Assembly (NCBI RefSeq): GCF_002198715.1
Contig: NZ_MWLK01000038.1
Span: forward strand, 1 to 64,000
Origin: Rhodomicrobium sp. R_RK_3
GTDB taxonomy: Bacteria > Pseudomonadota > Alphaproteobacteria > Rhizobiales > Rhodomicrobiaceae
DNA length: 64,000 nt
Reading direction: 5' to 3'
Shown: piece by piece, positions 3,381 through 23,566 of the stretch
How the letters are laid out: each line of letters begins with the position of its first letter
Numbering within the stretch: the stretch's first letter is position 1
Program-made: the position numbers and the translations under genes
Notes under the pieces: generated by a model
What the model saw: only the letters and a program-made list of their open reading frames with translations
What the model was told of the DNA's origin: nothing
Databases searched by the model: none

Positions 3381-5018
3381 TTACGCCCGGCCGAGCTTTT
3401 CCGCGCCGCCGCCGAGCGCGGGCCCGGCGGTGGGGTCGAAATCCTCGGGCTGCTTGGCGATCAGCGTGTCGGTGGTCAGGATCAGCCCGGCGACCGAGGC
3501 GGCGTTGCGCAGCGCGGTGGTCGCGACCTTGACCGGGTCCATGATCCCGGCTGTGGCGAGATCGAGCAACTCGCCGGTCCTCGCATCGAGGCCGACCGCG
3601 CCCTTGGCCTTCTGCACCCGCTTCAATTGCGCTGCGGCGTCCAGGCCGCAATTGCGCGCGATGGTCAAGAGCGGCTGGGCGAGCGCGCATTGCAGCAGCT
3701 CGACGCCGGTGCGGGTGCTGCCCGTTTGGCGGCCGATCAGCTCATCAAGCTCAGGCGCGATCCGCACCAGCGCGGTGCCGCCGCCGGGAACCACGCCCTC
3801 GGCGATGGCGGCGCGGGTCGCATTGATGGCGTCCTCGATCAATTGCAGCCGCCGCTTCTGCTCGACGGGCGTCGCGCCGCCGGCAAGAATCACCGCCGTG
3901 CCGCCCGACAGCTTGGCCAGCCGCTCCTGGAACTTGTCGCGCTCGATATTTTCCGGCGCGGCCTCCCATTGCCGCGTCACCTGCTCGCGGCGGGCGGCGA
4001 TGGCGATTTCGTCGCCCTCGCCGGCGGTAATGAGCGTGCGGTTGGCCGAGATGCGGACCTGCCGCGCGCCGCCGAGATCGGCGAGCTGAACCTGATCGAC
4101 CCTGCCGCCGAGATCGCGGGCGATGACGCGGCCGCCGGTCGCGATGGCGATGTCTTCCAGCATTGCCTTGCGCCAATGGCCATATTCGGGCGGGTTGATC
4201 GCGGCGATGGGCCGCTTGCTGGTCTCGCGCCGGGTGAGCAGATGGATCACCGCGCCGGGCGCGATGTCCTCGGCGATGATGAGCAGCGGGCGCTTGGCCT
4301 TCTCCGACAGCGCCAGCGCGGCGGCGAGTTCGTCCGGGCCGCCGATCTTGTGATCGGTGAGAAGGATCAGCGGGTGGTCGAGCACCACCTGCATCCGCTC
4401 GACATCGGTGACCATGTGGTGAGAGAGATAGCTGCGGTCGAAGGCCATGCCGTCGATGATCTCCAGCGCGGTATCGACGCCGACGCCGAATTGCACATCG
4501 ACGATGCCGTCCGCGCCGACGCGGGCAAAGGCTTCCGCCACCATGGCGCCGAGCCGTTCGTCATTCGCCGCGATGCTGGCCACGGCGCGCGCCTGTTCCG
4601 GCCCGTCCAGGTCGCGCGCGGAGCGGTTCAGCGCGGCGATGGCGGCTTCGGTGCCGATGGCGAGCCCTTCGACCAGTTCGACCGCATTGGCGCCCTTGGC
4701 GATGGCGGCGAGGCCCTGCTGCACGAGCGCATCCGCCAAGAGCGTCGCGGTGGTGGTGCCGTCACCCGCCACCTCGTTGGTCTGGCGCGAGACTTCGCGC
4801 ACGACCTGTACGCCCATATTCTCGAACGGGTCTTCCAGCTCGATTTCGGCGGCGATGCTGACGCCGTCGCGCGACACGATGGGCGAGCCGATGGGGCGGT
4901 CCATGAAGGCGTTCATGCCGCGCGGGCCGAGCGTGCCGCGCAGGGCGCGGGCCAGTTTCGCCACGCCCCGTCCGAGCGCTTCGCGGGCGGCTTCGTCGTG
5001 CAGCAGCATTTTCGGCAT
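3381..5018 (-). CDS. GroEL-like chaperonin dedicated to the diiron monooxygenase
   Basis: A 545-aa group I chaperonin. It has LGPRGMNAFMD, the ATP-site motif AGDGTTTAT (Asp86) and GIMDPVKVATTALRNAASVAG near the C-terminus. It is diverged from housekeeping GroEL: the N-terminus is MPKMLLHDEAAREAL, and the tail ends GGGAEKLGRA without Gly-Gly-Met repeats. There is no groES beside it. In actinobacterial propane/acetone monooxygenase clusters a GroEL-like protein (MimG) is needed for functional hydroxylase, so a role in folding PrmA is the natural reading. A strong Shine-Dalgarno (GGAGG) precedes the ATG and the gap to the upstream DUF59 gene is 24 bp, consistent with one operon. Confidence 0.93.
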   Translation of the reverse strand: MPKMLLHDEAAREALGRGVAKLARALRGTLGPRGMNAFMDRPIGSPIVSRDGVSIAAEIELEDPFENMGVQVVREVSRQTNEVAGDGTTTATLLADALVQQGLAAIAKGANAVELVEGLAIGTEAAIAALNRSARDLDGPEQARAVASIAANDERLGAMVAEAFARVGADGIVDVQFGVGVDTALEIIDGMAFDRSYLSHHMVTDVERMQVVLDHPLILLTDHKIGGPDELAAALALSEKAKRPLLIIAEDIAPGAVIHLLTRRETSKRPIAAINPPEYGHWRKAMLEDIAIATGGRVIARDLGGRVDQVQLADLGGARQVRISANRTLITAGEGDEIAIAARREQVTRQWEAAPENIERDKFQERLAKLSGGTAVILAGGATPVEQKRRLQLIEDAINATRAAIAEGVVPGGGTALVRIAPELDELIGRQTGSTRTGVELLQCALAQPLLTIARNCGLDAAAQLKRVQKAKGAVGLDARTGELLDLATAGIMDPVKVATTALRNAASVAGLILTTDTLIAKQPEDFDPTAGPALGGGAEKLGRA

Positions 5019-5042: not shown

Positions 5043-5810
5043 TTACGAGTGGGGGCGTTGCGATTTCAGCGGTGTGGTGGTGTCGAACTCGTAGCGCGCG
5101 GCGAGCAGGCCGGAGCAGAGCGCGCCGTTGAACTCGGCGTTGACGCGCACGCTGCGCAGGCGCTTGAGATGCGCGGCGAAGTCGGCTGGCGCGAGCGGTT
5201 GGCCCTCGGTGGTGACGAAGGCGAGGGCGTCGGCGGCGAGCGGCCCGGCGGCGTCGCGGCGTTCGAGATAGCGGGTGCGGGCGAGCGCGCCTGCCTCGTC
5301 GAGCGTGAGCGCGTCCAGTTCGGAGAGCGTCATCCGCGCCAGCGCATCCGGGGCAAAGCCGAGGTCGCGCAGATGCAGCAGCATCGCCTCCTGCCGCCGC
5401 TGGAACGCCTTCAGCAGGAAGATGCGCCTGACATCATCGAGGTTTCCGTCGGCCTCCTCGCCGAACGTATCGGCGAAGGAGCAGCCTTGCGCCATGCCGC
5501 GATTGATGGTCTCGGCATACATATGCTCGTCGAGCACCACCGAGACGGCGCTGACCCAGGGCAGCGCCGCGACCGCCGCGCGCATGTCGTCGGCCATCAT
5601 GAAAGCGAAATTCGGCGCGCACCAATAGGTCGGCAGGCGGAAGCGGATGCCGACGCGGCCATCCTCGCCGAGCGTGACGGCGCTGACGAACTTCATCTCC
5701 GTCACCGAGCGGTCGAGCTCGGGGTCGGTCACGCGCGAAAGGCTGTCCCACACCTCGGCAAGTCTTGAGGCATGGCTCATCGCTCCGGCGGAAGCTGGCT
5801 GCGTCGGCAT
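5043..5810 (-). CDS. DUF59/MIP18-type metal-sulfur assembly protein of the monooxygenase operon
   Basis: A 255-aa protein. The first 110 residues are a DUF59/MIP18 domain (VTDPELDRSVTEMKFV, then RLPTYWCAPNFAFMMADDM with a single conserved Cys), a fold linked to iron-sulfur maturation. The remaining 145 residues are helical and unassigned. Proteins of this design accompany propane monooxygenase genes, so a role in diiron or reductase cofactor assembly is likely but unproven. ATG 5810 (MPTQPAS) follows GGGAG at good spacing; an in-frame TTG lies two codons upstream. It starts 13 bp after the amidohydrolase stop. Confidence 0.88.
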   Translation of the reverse strand: MPTQPASAGAMSHASRLAEVWDSLSRVTDPELDRSVTEMKFVSAVTLGEDGRVGIRFRLPTYWCAPNFAFMMADDMRAAVAALPWVSAVSVVLDEHMYAETINRGMAQGCSFADTFGEEADGNLDDVRRIFLLKAFQRRQEAMLLHLRDLGFAPDALARMTLSELDALTLDEAGALARTRYLERRDAAGPLAADALAFVTTEGQPLAPADFAAHLKRLRSVRVNAEFNGALCSGLLAARYEFDTTTPLKSQRPHS

Positions 5811-5823
5811 CGTCAAGCTCCCG

Positions 5824-6828
5824 TCAGGCGGCGCGTTTCAGCTTGGCCTTCTGCGCATCGACGTCGATGCCGTAGAGCCGCGCCGCATTCAGGCCGAGGA
5901 TTTTCTTTTTCGCCTGCATGGTCAGCGGCACGCCCGTCTCCTTGACCACATCATCCGGCAGCTCGAAGGCCATGAACCGGTCGACGATCCATTTCGGCGT
6001 CCAGATGCCGTAGTCGCTGCCGTAGAGGATCTTGTCCTCGCCGACCCAGAACAGCAGCTCCGAGATCACATGCGCGAAATAGCCCGGGCGCGTGTGGATG
6101 AAGGGCAGGGCGACGGCGAGGCCGGCATAGACATTGGTCTCCTGCGTGGCGATCCAGCAGAAATCATCGAGGCGCGGCAGGCCGCAATGCTCGACGATGA
6201 AATTGAGGTCCTGGAACGACGTCGCAACGTCATCGACATCGGCGACGTCGAAGGCATCGCGGTTGAGGGGGATGATGGTCGGCCCCTTATGCACATGGAT
6301 GTTCCGGATGCCGAGCTTCTGCGCCTCTTCGAGGAAGCGGTAGCTCTCCTTGTCGGAGAGCTTGTAGCCCTTGGACTCGCCGCGCCATTCCGCCGTGTAG
6401 AGCTTGGCGCCGGTGATGTTGTATTTTTCCTTCAGCTCATGCATGTGCTCCAGCCCCTTCGTCCCGTCGCGCGGGTCGAAGGCGCCGTTCAGGATGAAGC
6501 GGTCGGGGTGGGTCTTCTTCAGCTCGGCATTGCGCTCGGTGGTGTTGAACCCGGATTTATAGAAGTCGGTGAGATATGTCGGCTGCAAAATCGCCATGTC
6601 GTCATAGCCGCGCACGAACAGGTCGTCATACATGGTGCGGGCGTCGTATTTCTCGAATTTCTCCTTCGGCCACCGCTCCTCCGGCGGGCTGAGATTGGTG
6701 TGATAGGCAAAGAAGCAGTCGATGAACTGCTTGCCGTGGATGTTCTTCTGATTGGCCGGGCTGCCGTCCCAGAAATGGGTGTGCCCGTCGATGACGAAGA
6801 TTTCCTCGCCCGTCTTGGTCCTGAACAT
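5824..6828 (-). CDS. amidohydrolase-2 family protein in the propane monooxygenase operon
   Basis: A 334-aa TIM-barrel metal-dependent hydrolase or decarboxylase-like protein. The metal-binding HxH occurs in DGHTHFWDGS (residues 14-23); later landmarks are VHKGPTIIPL, FIVEHCGLPRLDDF and LYGSDYGIW (the catalytic-Asp region). A strong Shine-Dalgarno (GAGGAGGAG) precedes ATG 6828. An amidohydrolase at this place is conserved in propane monooxygenase clusters. Its reaction is unknown; it may act on an oxidation product or help hydroxylase maturation. The neighbouring gaps are 39 and 13 bp, so it is cotranscribed. Confidence 0.9.
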   Translation of the reverse strand: MFRTKTGEEIFVIDGHTHFWDGSPANQKNIHGKQFIDCFFAYHTNLSPPEERWPKEKFEKYDARTMYDDLFVRGYDDMAILQPTYLTDFYKSGFNTTERNAELKKTHPDRFILNGAFDPRDGTKGLEHMHELKEKYNITGAKLYTAEWRGESKGYKLSDKESYRFLEEAQKLGIRNIHVHKGPTIIPLNRDAFDVADVDDVATSFQDLNFIVEHCGLPRLDDFCWIATQETNVYAGLAVALPFIHTRPGYFAHVISELLFWVGEDKILYGSDYGIWTPKWIVDRFMAFELPDDVVKETGVPLTMQAKKKILGLNAARLYGIDVDAQKAKLKRAA

Positions 6829-6867: not shown

Positions 6868-7227
6868 CTATTGCCCGATATACTGGAAGGCGTCCTCCAT
6901 CCGGCCGAACAGCACCACGGTCTCGTCGTCGACCATGACCATCCGGCCGTAATGGGTGGAGGTGGAAATCTCGAACAGATGCGGGGTCATTTCGCGCCCT
7001 AGCTCCTGGCTGATCTCGGGCATGCTGAAGACGAGCTTGCCCCGGCCGTCGATGCGGATCATCGCCGGCAGGTAGGTGACGATGACGCCCGGGTTGCGGC
7101 CCATCACCTCGGCGATGACGCGCGCCTCGACGCTGTCGTTCATGGTGATGCCGCACTCGTCGGAAATGGTCTCCTCGAACTGCACGTCCTTCATCGATTT
7201 GAAGATGCTGGTCTGCGCCTGGGACAT
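6868..7227 (-). CDS. prmD: propane monooxygenase coupling (effector) protein
   Basis: A 119-aa MmoB/DmpM family protein. Such proteins are cofactor-free and bind the hydroxylase near the diiron site to tune oxygen activation and electron transfer. Features include VQFEETISDECGITMNDSVE, ARVIAEVMGRNPGVIVTYLP and a C-terminal MVMVDDETVVLFGRME segment. Start ATG 7227 (MSQAQTSIF) is chosen because GGAG lies upstream and the two earlier Met codons give no better site. The order alpha, reductase, beta, coupling protein matches prmABCD and differs from the mmoXYBZDC order of soluble methane monooxygenase. Confidence 0.93.
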   Translation of the reverse strand: MSQAQTSIFKSMKDVQFEETISDECGITMNDSVEARVIAEVMGRNPGVIVTYLPAMIRIDGRGKLVFSMPEISQELGREMTPHLFEISTSTHYGRMVMVDDETVVLFGRMEDAFQYIGQ

Positions 7228-7259
7228 GGTCGGCTCCATCAATAGGGGTTTCGGGGCGC

Positions 7260-8357
7260 TCAGTTCGCCAAGCCGCCGGCCGGGTTCAATCCGATCTCGG
7301 AACAGATCGCGCCGACCCGGCTCTTGGCCTTGGCCAGCGCCTCCTGGAAGGTTGCGACCTTCACGCGCGGCTGCGACCAGATCGGCTGCAGGTTGTTGGC
7401 GGCGTCGAGCGCCAGCGCGCCATATTTGCCGAGCCAGCTCGAGAAGATGCCCCTGTTGTACTCGCCATATTGCGGGTCGGTGACGAGCAGGTTGATCAGC
7501 TCGACCGTGTTGGCCAGGTTACGCTCGTAATCCGCCTCCGCCGCCGAGACGACGGCGGGCGTGACGAAATCATTCTGCGCGGCGGCAAGCTGCATGACGA
7601 AGCCGGAGCGGAACAACTCGCCCACCAGCGGCTCGAAAACGATGTTCACGGCAAAATACTGCTCGAGATAATCTGACGCCCCCATGATCGACTCGATCAG
7701 CTTGCGCGTCGCCTGCCAGGTGGGGTCTTCGAGCCAATGCTTCTTGCCGGCGGCGGTGTCGAAGCCCGGGATGTCCAGCGCGATCTCGCTGAGATAGAGC
7801 GTGAGATCCTGGGCGAAGCGCAGCTTGTAGGAGGAATTGGTCAGGATCGCATTGTTGATCATCTGGGTGTAGCCGTAGCGCTGCGCCTGCATGGTCGCCG
7901 TGCCGAGGCCGAATTCGGCGTGCTTGTAAGCGCCGAGGTGATCCTGCAGCACCTTCACCCACGCCTTGTCGAAGCGGGCGGTCGCGCCGGATTTGCGGCC
8001 ATTGGCGATGACGTTCTGCACCATGCCGCAGATGGTCGATTGCCGCTGGTAATGGGTGCGCTCCCATTCCTCGTCGACGGCGCGAAACTTGTGCCAGTCA
8101 GCGCTTTTGACCTTGGTCCAGTCCTTGGAATAGGTCGGCGTGCCATCGGGGAAATTGATGATCCAGTCCTGGAGCAGGTAGCGCTCCGGATCGGGCTGCA
8201 CATCGACGGTCATGTCCTCGTAATGCGTCGCCTTGCGGCCCTTCGGCTCAAAGTAATTATATTTGCGGCTTTCCGAGCCGGCGAAGGAGGCGGCGCCCGC
8301 CGCGCCCGACTTGGTGGGGCTGGCGGTGTTGCTGTCAGGCTTCTGCTGGGCACCCAT
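7260..8357 (-). CDS. prmC: propane monooxygenase hydroxylase, beta (small) subunit
   Basis: A 365-aa subunit of the soluble diiron hydroxylase. It has the same ferritin-like helical fold as the alpha subunit but no metal ligands. Recognisable segments are RKYNYFEPKGRKATHYEDM, YLLQDWIINFPDGTPTY and DLTLYLSEIALDIPGF. ATG 8357 (MGAQQKPDS) sits behind AGGGAGGT; a longer reading frame adds 11 residues without support. It lies 36 bp after prmB and 32 bp before prmD. Confidence 0.93.
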   Translation of the reverse strand: MGAQQKPDSNTASPTKSGAAGAASFAGSESRKYNYFEPKGRKATHYEDMTVDVQPDPERYLLQDWIINFPDGTPTYSKDWTKVKSADWHKFRAVDEEWERTHYQRQSTICGMVQNVIANGRKSGATARFDKAWVKVLQDHLGAYKHAEFGLGTATMQAQRYGYTQMINNAILTNSSYKLRFAQDLTLYLSEIALDIPGFDTAAGKKHWLEDPTWQATRKLIESIMGASDYLEQYFAVNIVFEPLVGELFRSGFVMQLAAAQNDFVTPAVVSAAEADYERNLANTVELINLLVTDPQYGEYNRGIFSSWLGKYGALALDAANNLQPIWSQPRVKVATFQEALAKAKSRVGAICSEIGLNPAGGLAN

Positions 8358-8393
8358 CGTGACCTCCCTGGTGGTTCTGGTTGTTGGCACTCG

Positions 8394-9443
8394 CTAGCTG
8401 CTGGGCTGGGTGAACTTGTCGAAATGGATGTTGAACGGCTCGACGCCGGCCATCTGCAGGACCGGCAGCACCGCGTCGATCATCGCGGGAGGACCGCAGG
8501 CATAGGCGTCGATCTCGCCGCCGAGCTGCGCCGTGGCGAGATAGCGGCGCACGGTCTCGTGGATGAAGCCGCGCTCGCCATGCCAGCCCTCGGGCGGGGC
8601 ATCGGAAAGCGCGGGGATGAAGCGGAAGTCGTCGAGGCCGCGCGCAATGGCGGCGAATTCTTCGAGGTAGAACAGGTCGGCGGCGGTGCGCGCGCCGTAG
8701 AAGAAGCGGACGGGGCGCTGCTCGCCGCTCTCGATATGGTCGGCGAGCATCGACCAGAGCGGCGACATGCCCGAGCCGCCGCCGATCAGCAGCATCGGAC
8801 CGGGCCGCGCCTCGCGGCGGAAGCAGGTGCCGTAGGGGCCTTTGGCGGTGAGCCGGTCGCCGGGTTTCAGGCCGCCGTCGAGGCGCGCGGAAAAGGCGCC
8901 ATCCGGGTATTTCTTGATGATGAAGCTCAGCACTTCGGGCGAACTCGGCGCACTCGACATGGAGAAGGAGCGCGTGATCGCGGGCGTGTCCCCGGTCGCG
9001 GGAATGGTCAGATCGACATACTGCCCCGCCCAGAACTTTAGCGGTGCTTCAATAGCGACTTCCAAGAGCCGGATGTCCTGCGTCAGCGGCGACACCGCGC
9101 GCACTTCCGCCTCGTATGAGCGCACCGGGATCGAGCGGCGCAGCAGATCCTCGTCGAAATTCAGCAGCTCGACGATCAGATCGCTATAGGCGTGCGTCCG
9201 GCACAGGAGCACGTGATCCGTCTCCTTCTCGTAATCCGGCAGCGCAAAGGTCGAATATTTCATCAGCTCGATGTCGCCCTCGACGAGCAGCGACTTGCAG
9301 CTTCCGCACTGGCCCTCCTTGCAGCCATGCATCAGCGCGATGCCCTGGCGGAAGGCGGCTTCCAGCACGGTTTCGCCCTCCTCGACATCCATCTCGATGC
9401 CGACCGGTTCCAGCCTGACCGTGTGCATGTGCTTGAGCGGCAT
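8394..9443 (-). CDS. prmB: propane monooxygenase reductase
   Basis: A 349-aa NAD(P)H oxidoreductase that passes electrons to the hydroxylase. The N-terminal plant-type [2Fe-2S] domain has Cys41, Cys46, Cys49 and Cys81 (GCKEGQCGSC). The FAD-binding motif RSFSMSS starts at residue 158 and the nucleotide site is LLIGGGSGMSPLW near 218. GGAAGG precedes ATG 9443. The gene is separated from prmA by 74 bp that hold a strong hairpin, the largest gap between prmA and the end of the operon, which would let hydroxylase message exceed reductase message. Confidence 0.94.
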   Translation of the reverse strand: MPLKHMHTVRLEPVGIEMDVEEGETVLEAAFRQGIALMHGCKEGQCGSCKSLLVEGDIELMKYSTFALPDYEKETDHVLLCRTHAYSDLIVELLNFDEDLLRRSIPVRSYEAEVRAVSPLTQDIRLLEVAIEAPLKFWAGQYVDLTIPATGDTPAITRSFSMSSAPSSPEVLSFIIKKYPDGAFSARLDGGLKPGDRLTAKGPYGTCFRREARPGPMLLIGGGSGMSPLWSMLADHIESGEQRPVRFFYGARTAADLFYLEEFAAIARGLDDFRFIPALSDAPPEGWHGERGFIHETVRRYLATAQLGGEIDAYACGPPAMIDAVLPVLQMAGVEPFNIHFDKFTQPSS

Positions 9444-9517: not shown

Positions 9518-11182
9518 TCAGATCGGCCGCATCGTGAAGCCCTTGCGGTATTCGGCGACGGCTTTCTCCCGGTCCTCGGGGCTCAAGGCGCGGATGCCGC
9601 GCAAGGGGCTCGCCAGCGTGTTGCCGCGCACATGGTCGAGCGTCCACATCTCCTTGTCGTCGAAGCGCAGATGCGGCTGCGGCACCAGCGTCTTGCCGTC
9701 GGGGCGGACGAAGCCGAGATCCTTGATGGCGTCGGCGAGGTCCCAGCCGTGGTAGCAGTCCTCCCATTCGCGCCGGCCGCTGAAGCGGCCCATGGCGGGC
9801 GTCGGGCGGCCCTCATACTCGGCGCCGAAGGCGACCTTATGCGTCCAGCGGCACTGGTCGGAGCAATAGGTGTAGAGCTTGCCGTCGACTTCGTCGGTGC
9901 ACATGTCCTCGCGGATCAGGCAGGGCACCATGCAGCTCCAGCAGCGATGCGGGTAGACATAGCCGCAATCGGTGTTGAACAGGATGTTCTGCTCGCCGGG
10001 ATGGCTGAGCTTCTCATACCATTTCCAGAAGGCGCCGAACTCGTTGTACCAGCCCGGATATTTGTGCTCGAACCACTCGAAGTCCTTCTCGGTCTGGGCC
10101 TCGATGCGCCAGAAATTCACCGGCCAGCCGACCGCGAAGAACTGCGCGGTCTTGTGGACGTAATTCTTCTTCACCAGCCGGTCCCAGGCCGCCGCGACGT
10201 CATCGTGATGGATCTTGATGCCGTATTTCTCCAGCGGCAGCATGTAGGTGCGGTAGTAGTCCTCATAGATCCAGCGATGCCACAGCTCGCTATAGGACTC
10301 CTTGCTTTTGTCGCGGTTGGTGGTGCCGTATTCGATGAAGGTGCCGATGGCGGCGTCGACGATGGCGTGGTTCTGCCAGAAGGCGTATCTCAGGTCGCGC
10401 TCGAGCAACTGATGGTTGGAAGGGTCGTTGATCATCGCCATCAGCATCGAATGGCCGTTGCCGATATGGCGGGATTCATCCGACTGCACCGACAGGAACA
10501 CCGTCGGCAGCGCGTAGTCGCCATTGCGGGCGGCCTCTGACGGCATGGCGACGAACAGCGTGTTGGTGAAGGCCGTTTCCGCGACCACTGTGAGGTAGAC
10601 ATTCGCCGCCGTGATGGCGTCGCCGGTCAAAAAGCCTTCGGCGAACTGGCGGCCGATGGTGGTCGCGTAGCACTTGCCGAAAGCGGCCTCGGTGATGTCG
10701 AAGCCGGCCGGATCGATGTAGTTCTCCATGTACCATTTCTTGAGGTTCATCTGGATGGTGGAGTGCCGGAACTCGTCGACCATCTGCATGGTGAAGCCGG
10801 TGCGCAGCTCCTCGCCGGGGGCGAGCCGCCCGACCATCGCCATCGAGCGCGCCGCCGAAATCTCCGGGAAGGGGATGATGGCGAGGAAGAGCTTCATCCA
10901 CTCGACCCAGCGCGGCTCGACATTGCGGAACATATCGCCGCGCAGCGCTGCATCGAGCGCGCCATAGACGCGGTTGTCCTTTTCCTCCTGCATCGGGAAA
11001 TAGGAGCGAAGCACCTGCTTCATCGGGTCTTTCGGGACTTTGGAAATCTTGTAGTCCGTGGGGAAGGTCATCGCCTCCTGGACATAGCTCGGCGTCCAGC
11101 CGAGATCGGCGACGCGGCTCGCGGCCTCACCGATGGAGATGCCCTTCTGCGCGGTGATCTTGTTCAGGGTCATGGGTGCCAT
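9518..11182 (-). CDS. prmA: propane monooxygenase hydroxylase, alpha (large) subunit
   Basis: A 554-aa catalytic subunit of a soluble diiron monooxygenase. All six iron ligands can be placed: Glu107, Glu137 and His140 (DEFRH), Glu202, Glu236 and His239 (DESRH). Their spacings (30, 65 and 34 residues between the Glu ligands) equal those of MmoX. Thr206 aligns with the active-site Thr213 of MmoX, and Gln144 replaces MmoX Cys151, as in non-methane members. ATG 11182 has AAGGAG 9 nt upstream; an in-frame TTG two codons earlier is less likely. The substrate is inferred from gene order prmABCD with ADH and GroEL partners, which is the propane 2-monooxygenase layout. Confidence 0.95.
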   Translation of the reverse strand: MAPMTLNKITAQKGISIGEAASRVADLGWTPSYVQEAMTFPTDYKISKVPKDPMKQVLRSYFPMQEEKDNRVYGALDAALRGDMFRNVEPRWVEWMKLFLAIIPFPEISAARSMAMVGRLAPGEELRTGFTMQMVDEFRHSTIQMNLKKWYMENYIDPAGFDITEAAFGKCYATTIGRQFAEGFLTGDAITAANVYLTVVAETAFTNTLFVAMPSEAARNGDYALPTVFLSVQSDESRHIGNGHSMLMAMINDPSNHQLLERDLRYAFWQNHAIVDAAIGTFIEYGTTNRDKSKESYSELWHRWIYEDYYRTYMLPLEKYGIKIHHDDVAAAWDRLVKKNYVHKTAQFFAVGWPVNFWRIEAQTEKDFEWFEHKYPGWYNEFGAFWKWYEKLSHPGEQNILFNTDCGYVYPHRCWSCMVPCLIREDMCTDEVDGKLYTYCSDQCRWTHKVAFGAEYEGRPTPAMGRFSGRREWEDCYHGWDLADAIKDLGFVRPDGKTLVPQPHLRFDDKEMWTLDHVRGNTLASPLRGIRALSPEDREKAVAEYRKGFTMRPI

Positions 11183-11219
11183 GTTCAAAACTCCTTCAAG
11201 GTCCGACTGCGCGCGGGCC

Positions 11220-11244: not shown

Positions 11245-11278
11245 CGCTTGGCGCGCGGATTCACGCTGTGTGATGCAT

Positions 11279-11340
11279 GCTACCGTCGGCATGCCCGACC
11301 TCTTCTCGAAGCTCGCACGCTACTGTCGGCGTGCCCGACC
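11279..11340. repeat. two 22-bp direct repeats upstream of prmA
   Basis: Copies at 11279-11300 and 11319-11340 differ at only two positions and are offset by 40 bp. Each contains the hairpin core GTCGGCRTGCCCGAC (5-bp stem, 5-nt loop). They lie between the 93-aa gene and prmA, where they could be RNA-processing or protein-binding sites. Confidence 0.7.
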
Positions 11341-11348
11341 AGCAGGCC

Positions 11349-11630
11349 TCAGCCCGGTTCCGCCCCGCCTTCATCGGAGCGCGGCCGGATCAGCGGCTTG
11401 CCTTCGGCGATGAAGCGCGCACACAAGAGCAGCGCGCCCATCGTGAAGTCCTTGCCGTGCGCCTTCAGCCCGGTATCGGCCACGAGGGCCAGGCGCACGA
11501 AGAAATCGTCCTTTAAGCGATCATCGCTCGTCAGCTCCGGCATCGGCTGGAAACCGGCGGCCGGCGGCGGTGCGTCTGGGGTTGCCGCCGCCGGCGCCAT
11601 TGCAGCCTGCCGGTTCCGTTTATTGCCCAT
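11349..11630 (-). CDS. uncharacterised 93-aa protein of the propane monooxygenase operon
   Basis: A small soluble protein beginning MGNKRNRQAAM. Residues 11-30 are an Ala/Pro-rich linker. The conserved-looking part is PELTSDDRLKDDFFVRLALV and then HGKDFTMGALLLCARFIAEG, predicted helical with one Cys. It starts 11 bp after the 113-aa gene stop and precedes prmA in the same direction, so it is very probably cotranscribed. I do not recognise a family. Its position suggests an accessory role in hydroxylase assembly, stability or regulation. Confidence 0.7.
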   Translation of the reverse strand: MGNKRNRQAAMAPAAATPDAPPPAAGFQPMPELTSDDRLKDDFFVRLALVADTGLKAHGKDFTMGALLLCARFIAEGKPLIRPRSDEGGAEPG

Positions 11631-11641
11631 CCAACTCTCCC

Positions 11642-11983
11642 CTATGCATGGCCCTGGCGCGGATCGCGCGTGGGCGGGGCCGCGCCATCCAATTCGGCCA
11701 GCATCCGGTCCAGCCATTCCCGCTCGACGGCGAATTTCTCGAGCTGCCGCGTGAGCAGCTCGAACTGCTTCGCCAAGCCTTCCGCCGCATCGCGCCGCGC
11801 CTCGGTCGCGTCCGGTGCGCCGGCGAGGCGCTTGGCGTGTTCCGCCTCGAGAGCCAGCCCGATCGACAGGCTCTCGAAATGCCGGCGCTTGGCGTCGATC
11901 TCCATCACCCTGAGAATCAGCCGGTTCCGCTCGGCGATGCGGGCTTCTTCCCGCGCATCGTCTCCGGGCGCGGGCGTCGTCAC
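11642..11983 (-). CDS. uncharacterised 113-aa coiled-coil protein of the propane monooxygenase operon
   Basis: A highly charged protein that looks almost wholly helical (LILRVMEIDAKRRHFESLS, then GLAKQFELLTRQLEKFAVER), with heptad-like spacing of Leu, Phe and Ile that suggests a coiled coil of about 80 residues. It has no signal peptide or Cys. The GTG start at 11983 overlaps the adh stop (GTGA), a translational-coupling arrangement, and the next gene begins 11 bp after its end. Function is unknown; it may be an assembly scaffold or regulatory partner. Confidence 0.72.
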   Translation of the reverse strand: MTTPAPGDDAREEARIAERNRLILRVMEIDAKRRHFESLSIGLALEAEHAKRLAGAPDATEARRDAAEGLAKQFELLTRQLEKFAVEREWLDRMLAELDGAAPPTRDPRQGHA

Positions 11984-13023
11984 GGGATCAGCACCGCTCG
12001 GCCCTTGATGCGGCCGTGATGCAAATCGTGCAGCGCCTCGTTCGCCTCGCTCAGCTTGTATTCGCGCGTCGCCAGATGCACCCGGCCGCGATCGGCCAGC
12101 GCCATCAGCTCAACCAGCTCGGCATAGGTGCCGACCAGATTGCCGACGATGGTCTTTTCCGAGGTGATCATGTCCATGGCCGGCAGGTCGATGCGGCCGC
12201 CATAGCCGACGATGTAATAGGCGCCGCCATTGCGGGTCATGGCGAGGCCGCGCGCGATGGCGTCCCCCTCGCCGACGAAATCGATGACGGCCTCGGCGCC
12301 CTTGCCTTTGGTCAGCTCCATGACGGCCGCAACCGGATCGGCCACGCCATTGATGAGGTGATGCGCCCCGCATTCCTCGGCCAGCTTGAGGGCGTTCTCC
12401 GAGCGGTCCACCACGATGATCTCGGCGGCGCAGAGCGCGCCCAGCACCTGGATGCCGATATGGCCGAGGCCGCCCGCGCCGATGACCACGGCATATTCGC
12501 CGGGCACCAGATGGCGCGAGGCCTTCTTGGCCGCGCGATAGGCGGTCAGCCCGGCATCGGTGTAGGGCGCAACATCCTTCGGCGCGAGGCTGCGGGGCAG
12601 TTTGATCAGCGCACGCTCGCCGGTCAGCAGATATTGCGCATAGCCGCCATTGGCATTGATGCCGGGAAAGCTGCTTTCGGCCGCGTGCATATCGTCGCCG
12701 CGGCGGCAGGCGAGGCAATGGCCGCTCGTCACCAGCGGATGGCAGATGACGGGATCGCCGACGCGCACGCTCGTCACCCCGCGCCCGATGGCCTCGACCC
12801 AGCCGGCATTCTCATGGCCCATGATGTAGGGGAGGGCGATGTCCACCTTGTCGCGCCAGATGCCCTCGACGATGTGCAGGTCCGTCCGGCAGACGCCCGC
12901 GCCGCCGACGCGCACGATGACGTCGGTGGCTTTCTTGATGACGGGATCGGCGACGTCCTCGAACTCCACGAAGCGGTCGGCGGCGAGCTGGGCGTCATAG
13001 CGGTGGAGGACGGCTGCTTTCAT
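11980..13023 (-). CDS. zinc-containing alcohol dehydrogenase of the propane pathway
   Basis: A 347-aa medium-chain dehydrogenase, first gene of the operon. It has the catalytic-zinc Cys in AGVCRTDLHIVEG, GHENAGWVEAIG, and the Rossmann motif VVIGAGGLGHIGIQVLGAL. The lobe that usually carries four structural-zinc cysteines reads GHCLACRRGDDMHAAESSF, with only two Cys. ATG 13023 (MKAAVLHRYDAQ) has GGGAG upstream; a longer frame adds 33 unsupported residues. In the pathway it should oxidise the secondary alcohol (propan-2-ol) to a ketone. A candidate sigma-54 promoter lies about 100 bp upstream. Confidence 0.93.
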   Translation of the reverse strand: MKAAVLHRYDAQLAADRFVEFEDVADPVIKKATDVIVRVGGAGVCRTDLHIVEGIWRDKVDIALPYIMGHENAGWVEAIGRGVTSVRVGDPVICHPLVTSGHCLACRRGDDMHAAESSFPGINANGGYAQYLLTGERALIKLPRSLAPKDVAPYTDAGLTAYRAAKKASRHLVPGEYAVVIGAGGLGHIGIQVLGALCAAEIIVVDRSENALKLAEECGAHHLINGVADPVAAVMELTKGKGAEAVIDFVGEGDAIARGLAMTRNGGAYYIVGYGGRIDLPAMDMITSEKTIVGNLVGTYAELVELMALADRGRVHLATREYKLSEANEALHDLHHGRIKGRAVLIP

Positions 13024-13118
13024 GGCGTCTTCGCTCCCATAAGTATTTTCCGCTATGATGCTCGGGCCTTCCGCTGTTCCCAGTTGAAAGCCCGGCGGCG
13101 TCCGGCTTCGGATGTATT

Positions 13119-13134
13119 CCAAGTTTCATGCCAA
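13119..13134 (-). promoter_or_regulatory. candidate sigma-54 (-24/-12) promoter for the adh-prm operon
   Basis: Minus-strand TTGGCATGAAACTTGG matches the consensus TTGGCACG-N4-TTGC at all defined -24 bases except C7 and ends TTGG instead of TTGC at -12. Spacing is correct. It would start transcription roughly 85 nt before the adh ATG, and the divergent gene encodes a sigma-54 activator. Confidence 0.6.
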
Positions 13135-13490: not shown

Positions 13491-15383
13491 ATGGGAATTA
13501 GCGACACGGCGGCTCTCAGGGCCCACGGCATCCTACAGAAGAAGGGCAAGCCCTCGGCCGAGCTGCTGTCCGCCGACATCTATCAGAGCTGGCAGCGCTG
13601 TCTCGCGCTCGGCCTCGATCCGCGCCGACCGCCCGCGCCCCGCATCGCCGAGGCGCCGAAGCTGCAAGCGGCGCGGGAGAAGAGCGGCCTCACGCGCAAG
13701 CTGGCGCTCGCCGAGTTGCATGGGCTGCATGAGCAATTCGCCGGCACCAGCTTCATGATCGCCTTCGCCGATGCCGACTGCCTGCTGCTCGACGTGTTCT
13801 CCGATCCCGATTTCATGACCACCGCCCGCGCCGCCGGTTTGCAGCCGGGCGGCGTCTGGTCGGAAGACGCCTGCGGCACCAACGCGCTCGGCTCAGCCGC
13901 CTTCGACCGGCGGCCGATGATCGTGCACGGCGCGGAGCATTTCTTCGTCAGCCACCTCGATTTGACCTGCATTGCCCATCCGGTGTTCTCGCCCGACGGC
14001 GCGCTGGCCGGCGTGATCGACGCCTCCTCCTATACGCGCTCGCGGCAATATCACACGCAGGTGCTGGTCCGCTTCGCCGCCACCCAGATCGAGAACGGCC
14101 TGTTCCGCGACCGCCACCGCGACGACAGCATCATCGCCTTCCACCACCGCAGCGAATATCTGAACAGCCTCACCGCAGGGCTGCTGGCGCTGCGCTCGGA
14201 TGGCTGCGTCGTCGGCGCGAACAAGGAGGCGCGCAGTTTTCTGCACGGCCGCTCCTTCGCCGAGCCCGCCGAGTTCGAAGCGGTGTTCGCCACCGGCTTC
14301 GACGCTGTCTTCCGCGACCTGCGCCAGCGCTCCCCGGTCCGGCTGAAGGACCGCGCGGGCGCGTCCTTCTTCGCCGTGCTGGACCCGCTGCACCGGCGCG
14401 AGAAGCCGCCGCCAATCGCCATCGGCAAAATCGCGGGCACGGTGAAGCCGGGCTTCGTCGCGGATGACGAGCGCGTCGCCACCATCGTCGCGCGCGTCGA
14501 GGCGGCGGCGGCGCGCAAGCTGCCGATCCTGATCCGGGGCGAGACCGGCACCGGCAAGGAGCTGCTCGCCCGCCATGCCCACACCGCGAGCGGACGCAAG
14601 GGCGCGTTCGTTCCGGTGAATTGCGCCGCGCTCCCCGACAGCCTGATCGAGGCCGAGCTGTTCGGCTATGCCGAGGGCGCATTCACCGGCGCGCGGCGCG
14701 GCGGCTCGCTGGGCCTTGTCTGCGAGGCGGATGGCGGCACGCTGTTCCTCGACGAAATCGGCGACCTGCCGATGCCGCTGCAAGCCGTGCTGCTGCGGCT
14801 GCTCGACGACTGGACCGTGCGCCCGATCGGCGGCCAGCGCCGGACGGTCGACGTGCAACTGGTCTCGGCGACCAACGTCAAGCTCGACGCCGCCATCGCC
14901 GCCGGGCGCTTCCGCTCCGATCTCCTCTACCGTATGAACACGCTCGAAGTGTCCCTGCCGAGCCTTGCCGGGCGCGGCGACATCGAGGCCATTGCCCGCC
15001 ATCTGCTGGCGAGCCACGCGCCGGGCTGCAAGCTCACCCAGGGCGCGGTCGAGCATCTGGCGAGCCATGACTGGCCCGGCAATATCCGCGAGCTGCGCAA
15101 TGAATTGCTGCGCGCCAGCCTCGGCGCCATCGACGGCGTCATCGACCGGCCGCTGATCGAAGCCGCCTGCGAGCGCCGCGCAGCAACGGTGGACCTCAAT
15201 GCGCCGGCCGCCGCCGAGGCCTCGCTGCGCGATCTGCGCAAGGAACGGGTGCGCGCGACGCTCGCCGAGACCGGCGGCAATATCAGCCTAGCGGCCCGCC
15301 GGCTCGGCGTATCTCGCAATACGGTCTACCGCATCATCGGGGCTGGCATCGGCGCTGCGGACGAGCCGGCCGACGCCGGTTAG
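13491..15383 (+). CDS. AcoR-like sigma-54 dependent activator of the monooxygenase operon
   Basis: A 630-aa enhancer-binding protein. Residues 1-60 (SADIYQSWQRCLALGLDP) are the AcoR-type N-terminus. A GAF-like sensor follows (about 65-200, with GGVWSEDACGTNALG). The AAA+ domain has Walker A GETGTGKE at 350 and the sigma-54 contact loop GAFTGA at 396-401, then GGTLFLDEIGDLP. A Fis-type helix-turn-helix (ETGGNISLAARRLGVSRNTV) closes the protein. It is divergent from the adh-prm operon, and regulators of this class (PrmR, MimR) control propane monooxygenase genes elsewhere. The effector probably binds the GAF region. The ATG follows a purine-rich stretch. Confidence 0.94.
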   Translation: MGISDTAALRAHGILQKKGKPSAELLSADIYQSWQRCLALGLDPRRPPAPRIAEAPKLQAAREKSGLTRKLALAELHGLHEQFAGTSFMIAFADADCLLLDVFSDPDFMTTARAAGLQPGGVWSEDACGTNALGSAAFDRRPMIVHGAEHFFVSHLDLTCIAHPVFSPDGALAGVIDASSYTRSRQYHTQVLVRFAATQIENGLFRDRHRDDSIIAFHHRSEYLNSLTAGLLALRSDGCVVGANKEARSFLHGRSFAEPAEFEAVFATGFDAVFRDLRQRSPVRLKDRAGASFFAVLDPLHRREKPPPIAIGKIAGTVKPGFVADDERVATIVARVEAAAARKLPILIRGETGTGKELLARHAHTASGRKGAFVPVNCAALPDSLIEAELFGYAEGAFTGARRGGSLGLVCEADGGTLFLDEIGDLPMPLQAVLLRLLDDWTVRPIGGQRRTVDVQLVSATNVKLDAAIAAGRFRSDLLYRMNTLEVSLPSLAGRGDIEAIARHLLASHAPGCKLTQGAVEHLASHDWPGNIRELRNELLRASLGAIDGVIDRPLIEAACERRAATVDLNAPAAAEASLRDLRKERVRATLAETGGNISLAARRLGVSRNTVYRIIGAGIGAADEPADAG

Positions 15384-17266: not shown

Positions 17267-23566
<6,300 letters not shown>

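Follow-up and report, generated by a model that had tools for sequence, protein, structure and literature searches.

Two small proteins encoded between the alcohol dehydrogenase gene and prmA of a Rhodomicrobium monooxygenase cluster, a coiled-coil protein (cc) and a 93-residue protein (s93), are, as judged from sequence comparison, almost certainly members of an accessory family tied to prm, the proteobacterial group V-type (propane/MimABCD-type) monooxygenases. In related genomes they stand at either end of a larger module of variable make-up with the composition cc-[CobW]-[WD40]-s93, sometimes supplemented with a protein of ca. 155 amino acids. Their actual job may well be maturation of the enzyme, i.e. 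assembly or iron loading, a role to which we assign about an even chance on the comparative evidence given below.

The genes are located in the window, which is the complete stretch of 64,000 nucleotides that was analysed, and are arranged on the minus strand in the order adh-cc-s93-prmA-reductase-prmC-prmD-amidohydrolase-PaaD-like-groEL. The features, listed in this order after the divergent activator gene, are:

13491..15383, plus strand: divergent sigma-54 activator with GAF, AAA+ and Fis HTH domains
13118..13133, minus strand: candidate degenerate -24/-12 (sigma-54) promoter TGGCATGAAACTTGGA, upstream of adh
11980..13023, minus strand: adh, alcohol dehydrogenase of the zinc type, probably starting with the ATG at 13023
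11642..11983, minus strand: cc, 113 aa, stop codon included in the coordinates, GTG start
11349..11630, minus strand: s93, 93 aa, stop codon included in the coordinates, ATG start
11275..11340, no strand assigned: 26-nt direct repeat, two copies, in the s93-prmA gap
9518..11188, minus strand: prmA, diiron hydroxylase large subunit
8394..9443, minus strand: monooxygenase reductase
7260..8390, minus strand: prmC, hydroxylase small subunit
6868..7242, minus strand: prmD, coupling protein resembling MimD (112.8 bits, cut-off 150)
5824..6828, minus strand: amidohydrolase of the cluster
5043..5816, minus strand: iron-sulfur assembly protein with a PaaD-like N-terminal domain (PF01883)
3381..5018, minus strand: cluster-encoded GroEL, in the position of MimG

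Both small reading frames of the preliminary description are present between adh and prmA, as are the GTGA overlap and the short distance between them: the cc GTG at 11983 overlaps the adh stop codon (11982-11980), the cc stop codon TAG occupies 11644-11642, and s93 follows after a gap of 11 bp with the sequence AGGGGAG just 5' of its ATG at 11630. The mechanically called adh frame extends to a TTG at 13122. An alternative s93 frame of 122 aa starts at 11717, and since the conserved core begins only near residue 33 of the 93-aa form, the start of s93 at 11630 is a provisional assignment. From the s93 end (11349) to the start of prmA there are 160 bp, and the two repeats in this gap, which are 88% alike with a start-to-start distance of 40 nt, form a possible regulatory element. 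The A-reductase-C-D gene order together with the amidohydrolase, iron-sulfur assembly and groEL genes identifies the cluster as a group V soluble diiron monooxygenase cluster, a label taken from the literature on prmABCD (PMC9213486). The PrmA protein is 80-92% identical to PrmA of a large alpha- and betaproteobacterial set and clusters with Bradyrhizobium, Rhodopseudomonas and others (95% SH-aLRT). The PrmA of a record titled Mycobacterium sp. KBS0706 (L048) groups with Inquilinus limosus (99% support), and this record is probably misnamed or mixed. Elsewhere in the window (17267-23566, plus strand) a hybrid histidine kinase-like frame of 2099 aa carries a long array of near-identical repeats that resemble HAMP units, after which come the kinase and receiver parts.

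Several lines of evidence show that cc and s93 are more than chance reading frames, namely homologues at the same locus position, HMM hits and low pN/pS values, and on these sequence criteria each is a real, constrained protein family. Homologues of s93 occur at the equivalent position in most prm loci, and within five clades the pN/pS is 0.11-0.31. The alignment of 69 s93 sequences has four invariant columns and a core of ca. 50 aa, at about residues 33-80, with the consensus SKDxFFxxLxxxAxxMIxxHGKDFAMGxLxLxARFIAEGK, for which a version with fewer open positions reads SKDxFFxxLGxxAxxMIAAHGKDFAMGALVLAARFIAEGK. AlphaFold predicts a two-helix hairpin (residues 35-58 and 60-76, pLDDT about 97) flanked by sequence-variable tails of low confidence. 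The cc protein is predicted to be a longer antiparallel two-helix coiled-coil hairpin (helices 8-55 and 61-100), with pN/pS of 0.19-0.45. HMMs built from s93-adjacent cc proteins recover the WD40-adjacent cc proteins and vice versa; when the cc-family HMMs were run against all loci, 34,138 reading frames in total, those cross-hits that are among the matches listed were frames in the module position, the tag 'other' in this search denoting frames that had simply not been labelled beforehand. The cc protein of the window matches the WD40-type cc HMM with an E-value of 0.0017 against the same background of 34,138 reading frames.

The preliminary description recognised no family for either protein, and the Pfam and NCBIfam scans agree: neither window protein gives a match above cut-off, and 68 further s93 homologues show no consistent Pfam family. 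Scattered weak Pfam hits in the cc/s93 set, for example YscO, Abi_C and ImpA_N, were not taken as family assignments. The s93 profile found nothing below an E-value of 0.79 among PDB sequences, and PDB fold searches gave no significant match for s93 and no match with E <0.001 for cc; generic helical hairpins (Rad50, prefoldin, Vipp1/PspA) all appeared as matches to cc with E >=0.001 and were taken as uninformative. Both proteins share with those of the DmpK/PHK/MmoD type that they are small, operon-encoded and co-occur with a monooxygenase, while curated family models of the DmpK/PHK type and MmoD type match neither. There is also no family match to the known kinds of gamma subunit (MmoZ, DmpO, TmoB), and the s93 and cc alignments display no conserved set of Cys/His metal ligands. 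In NCBI annotation these small proteins are called 'hypothetical protein' or lack annotation altogether, and a search of the open-licence literature retrieved no publication on the module.

The tie to the monooxygenase is evident from co-occurrence. Of the 397 genomes compared within the order, 21 have prmA (called at E below 1e-100) and 21 have s93; the two sets share 20 genomes and cover the same 13 genera (Fisher P about 2e-31, a value that ignores phylogeny). Each of the two exceptions appears to be an artefact, of assembly or of decay: the genome with prmA and without s93 (G192) has its prm contig ending inside the gene for the ~155-aa module protein, and the one with s93 and without prmA (G214) holds a stop-riddled s93 remnant. 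A class-level sample had s93 in two genomes, both with prmA; another genome of this sample (G423) has a close PrmA (78%) but no s93, and in three others all hydroxylases are distant, at 33-35% identity. Across 98 prm loci of at least 9 kb, in which a few genomes are counted twice, s93 is present in 87. Six of the other 11 have s93 elsewhere in the genome or record, often just past the fetched flank, one is cut by a contig end, and four lack s93. The apparent losses in Bradyrhizobium L093/L096, Azohydromonas L089 and CB82 were a matter of flank length. The protein was not found in the plasmid records of Azospirillum, Methylocella tundrae and Rhodococcus, or in genome G423; from these four absences it follows that the enzyme type can probably work without s93, which is thus not universal for it. 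The cluster of Rhodococcus JS3073 is without the module. Skermanella has s93 downstream of groEL, so that the Azospirillum-Methylocella branch is mixed; between these two genes an 88-aa hypothetical protein is encoded (L168:11406-11672), which has no Pfam match and is unlike cc in appearance. Of 13 plasmid records with s93, a prmA match was detected in 11, the other two being Rhizobium CB3171, which carries no annotation, and a Phyllobacterium plasmid, where the s93 region is flanked by transposases and looks like a remnant. The prm clusters of Shinella HZN7 (L170) and Phyllobacterium zundukense (L167) are apparently broken by IS elements with the module left behind. Conversely, s93 is kept in clusters that have no nearby adh, amidohydrolase, PaaD-like gene, CobW, WD40 or cc, and prmABCD is always there. 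Conservation next to prm genes in related genomes, which had been set beforehand as a test of the accessory proposal, is thereby strongly borne out.

The organisation of the module varies between relatives, in which CobW and WD40 were identified by Pfam. The window form adh-cc-s93-prmA is the commonest arrangement, found in full in 21 of the 98 loci, and an ATGA/GTGA overlap of adh and cc is possible in eight further loci. The arrangement adh-cc-cobW-WD40-s93-prmA occurs in 12/98 loci, mostly from Burkholderiaceae, and nine further loci have adh-cobW-WD40-s93 without a recognised cc. Mesorhizobium-type loci carry a divergent [~155 aa]-cc-WD40-s93 set, and in a clade comprising L093, L096, CB82, G050, G087 and G351 the module lies directly downstream of the sigma-54 activator gene on the same strand. 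Although the preliminary description regarded the two proteins as inserted between adh and prmA, these loci show them to be the ends of a larger variable module instead of a local insertion. Many relatives have a CobW GTPase, a WD40 beta-propeller or both between cc and s93; the window cluster contains no CobW/G3E GTPase and no WD40 gene, and the genome has no WD40 orthologue, giving only a distant hit with E 9e-7. The third, unnamed family of ca. 155 aa stands first in the module of Mesorhizobium-type clusters and of some from Bradyrhizobium (L158:8815-9273, L161:5748-6218, L098:6965-7438 and others) and has the motif GESQxxLxxHFxxFI ... HPxIxxFxExHA; it has no Pfam or NCBIfam match and no relative in the genome of the window.

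A link to metals comes from paralogs of the CobW-WD40 pair. With the profile of the prm-linked WD40 proteins, a second, paralogous WD40 gene was detected in 9 of 11 genomes tested other than that of the window (E 1e-65 to 1e-75), and in all seven regions fetched it adjoins a CobW homologue that is 45-52% identical to the prm-linked CobW. These pairs are located outside prm clusters, at L185:552-5235 (Bradyrhizobium BTAi1) and in L186-L191, and the BTAi1 pair has genes for an ABC ATPase, an ABC-3 permease and ZnuA as neighbours, a zinc-uptake transporter locus. Prokaryotic members of COG0523 subfamily 5 were reported to cluster with WD40 genes and znuABC, and the activator of Fe-type nitrile hydratase is a COG0523 protein as well (Haas et al. 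2009, PMC2770081). Since the CobW-WD40 pair exists apart from prm as a metal-trafficking unit, its presence in prm clusters suggests metal loading, and we infer that the full module may be a metal-delivery or assembly device. As the window is without CobW and WD40, the metal argument applies here indirectly, by kinship.

The cc and s93 families travel with prmABCD-groEL, with s93 as the near-invariant element, and with cc coupled to adh and both genes located just before prmA, the proteins would be made together with their client. In a maturation scheme, CobW, where present, would handle the metal, the WD40 protein and the cc hairpin would provide a scaffold, and s93 would be an adaptor contacting the newly folded hydroxylase, perhaps its small subunit, and would act alongside the cluster-encoded GroEL and the PaaD-like protein so that the enzyme becomes loaded with iron. 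In the window adaptor and hairpin alone remain, so the iron would come from the general cell supply. In its most specific form the proposal is tentative and has odds well below even in our judgement: a machine of CobW(G3E), WD40 and coiled coil could insert iron into a carboxylate-bridged diiron monooxygenase, with s93 as its client-specific adaptor, and, as part of the same joint reading, many alphaproteobacteria including the present strain could have a stripped-down version with adaptor and coiled coil alone. We know of no diiron enzyme with GTPase-driven metallocentre assembly. Precedents for accessory factors exist, as mimABCD depends on MimG, and PHK is reported to give phenol hydroxylase a higher affinity for iron (PMC7570240).

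The candidate -24/-12 site upstream of adh in the window matches at 10/12 positions with a changed -12 element and is by itself not above chance, and there is no good sigma-54 site upstream of prmA; in relatives, a good -24/-12 site precedes adh in 61/72 loci, against about one expected from shuffles. In the adh-cc-s93-prmA arrangement cc and s93 are therefore probably co-induced with the enzyme. Divergent modules have a sigma-54 site in only 2/27 cases. This, together with the modules behind the activator gene, makes a stoichiometric subunit less likely and leaves room for a role in regulation.

The main rival is regulation: cc and s93, joined in relatives by WD40, CobW and the ~155-aa protein, would make up a signalling module that keeps the sigma-54 activator under control or detects metal or substrate and tunes expression of the cluster, in the way that the coiled-coil protein PspA restrains PspF. 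We consider this rather unlikely, even though the rarity of the promoter in divergent modules implies that co-induction with the enzyme is not needed, the module follows the activator gene in the clade mentioned above, and cc and s93 evolve at a much higher rate than the enzyme subunits, as judged from pN/pS. The commonest arrangements, that of the window included, place the genes in the catabolic operon before prmA and away from the regulator; Azospirillum and Methylocella clusters have the same activator type without s93; and the Pfam/NCBIfam scans detect no DNA-binding domain in cc or s93.

It is improbable that the hydroxylase contains s93 (or cc) in stoichiometric amounts as an additional subunit, in place of a gamma subunit not encoded in the cluster. 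The near-perfect co-occurrence with prmA and the position of s93 directly upstream of prmA in most loci fit such a role, and so does its divergence, which after control for other cluster genes correlates positively with that of prmC only (0.35; 0/300 taxon permutations as high), a co-variation that falls to 0.14 without Burkholderiales and is a weak hint at most. Against this, s93 is divergent or distant from prmA without a shared sigma-54 promoter in many relatives, unlike the fixed order prmA-reductase-prmC-prmD, it has a pN/pS about 4-30 times as high as prmA, and it is absent from the Rhodococcus record. The earlier wording 'undescribed assembly, stability or regulatory subunits' hence stands as far as undescribed, monooxygenase-tied proteins conserved beside prm are concerned, whereas 'subunit' is its least likely element, because the module can diverge from prmA, then without a sigma-54 promoter, and is missing from the JS3073 cluster. 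Of the options named there, assembly or maturation fits best.

A module that supplies zinc to the zinc-type alcohol dehydrogenase of the cluster is still harder to sustain: COG0523-WD40 pairs are zinc-linked (PMC2770081) and adh lies next to cc, with an overlap in the window and possibly in eight relatives, but module or s93 also occur in clusters without a detected nearby adh (e.g. L081, L083, L094, L101, L151-L153, L156 and Skermanella L168), and the divergence of s93 and adh is not positively correlated. Hitch-hiking of frames without a role for the enzyme, persisting because the often plasmid-borne, horizontally moved clusters are transferred as a unit, is very improbable in view of the purifying selection on both proteins and the retention of s93 despite its reshuffled position and the gain and loss of neighbours.

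Among known systems, PHK/DmpK, too, is small and non-catalytic and has its gene together with those of a soluble diiron monooxygenase, but it belongs to another enzyme group and another gene module, and s93 and cc have no Pfam match above cut-off. MmoD of soluble methane monooxygenase is likewise a small operon-encoded protein, one that binds the hydroxylase; no relationship of s93 or cc to it is detectable in the NCBIfam/Pfam scans. MimG is an accessory factor needed by an active enzyme of the same type, and the window too has a cluster groEL; cc and s93, however, differ from this chaperonin in being very small predicted helical hairpins, and they occur along with GroEL instead of replacing it. 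COG0523 subfamily 5 with WD40 by znuABC resembles the module in that the cc-s93 interval of relatives holds a CobW-WD40 pair paralogous to the non-prm pair, with the difference that the prm-linked version adds cc and s93, and that CobW and WD40 either were lost from the window or were never there. Soluble diiron monooxygenases, which oxidise gaseous alkanes, are sought after for bioremediation and biocatalysis, but are hard to make in foreign hosts. As a near-constant companion of one enzyme branch, located beside metal-chaperone genes in relatives, s93 is an immediate candidate for a maturation factor missed so far.
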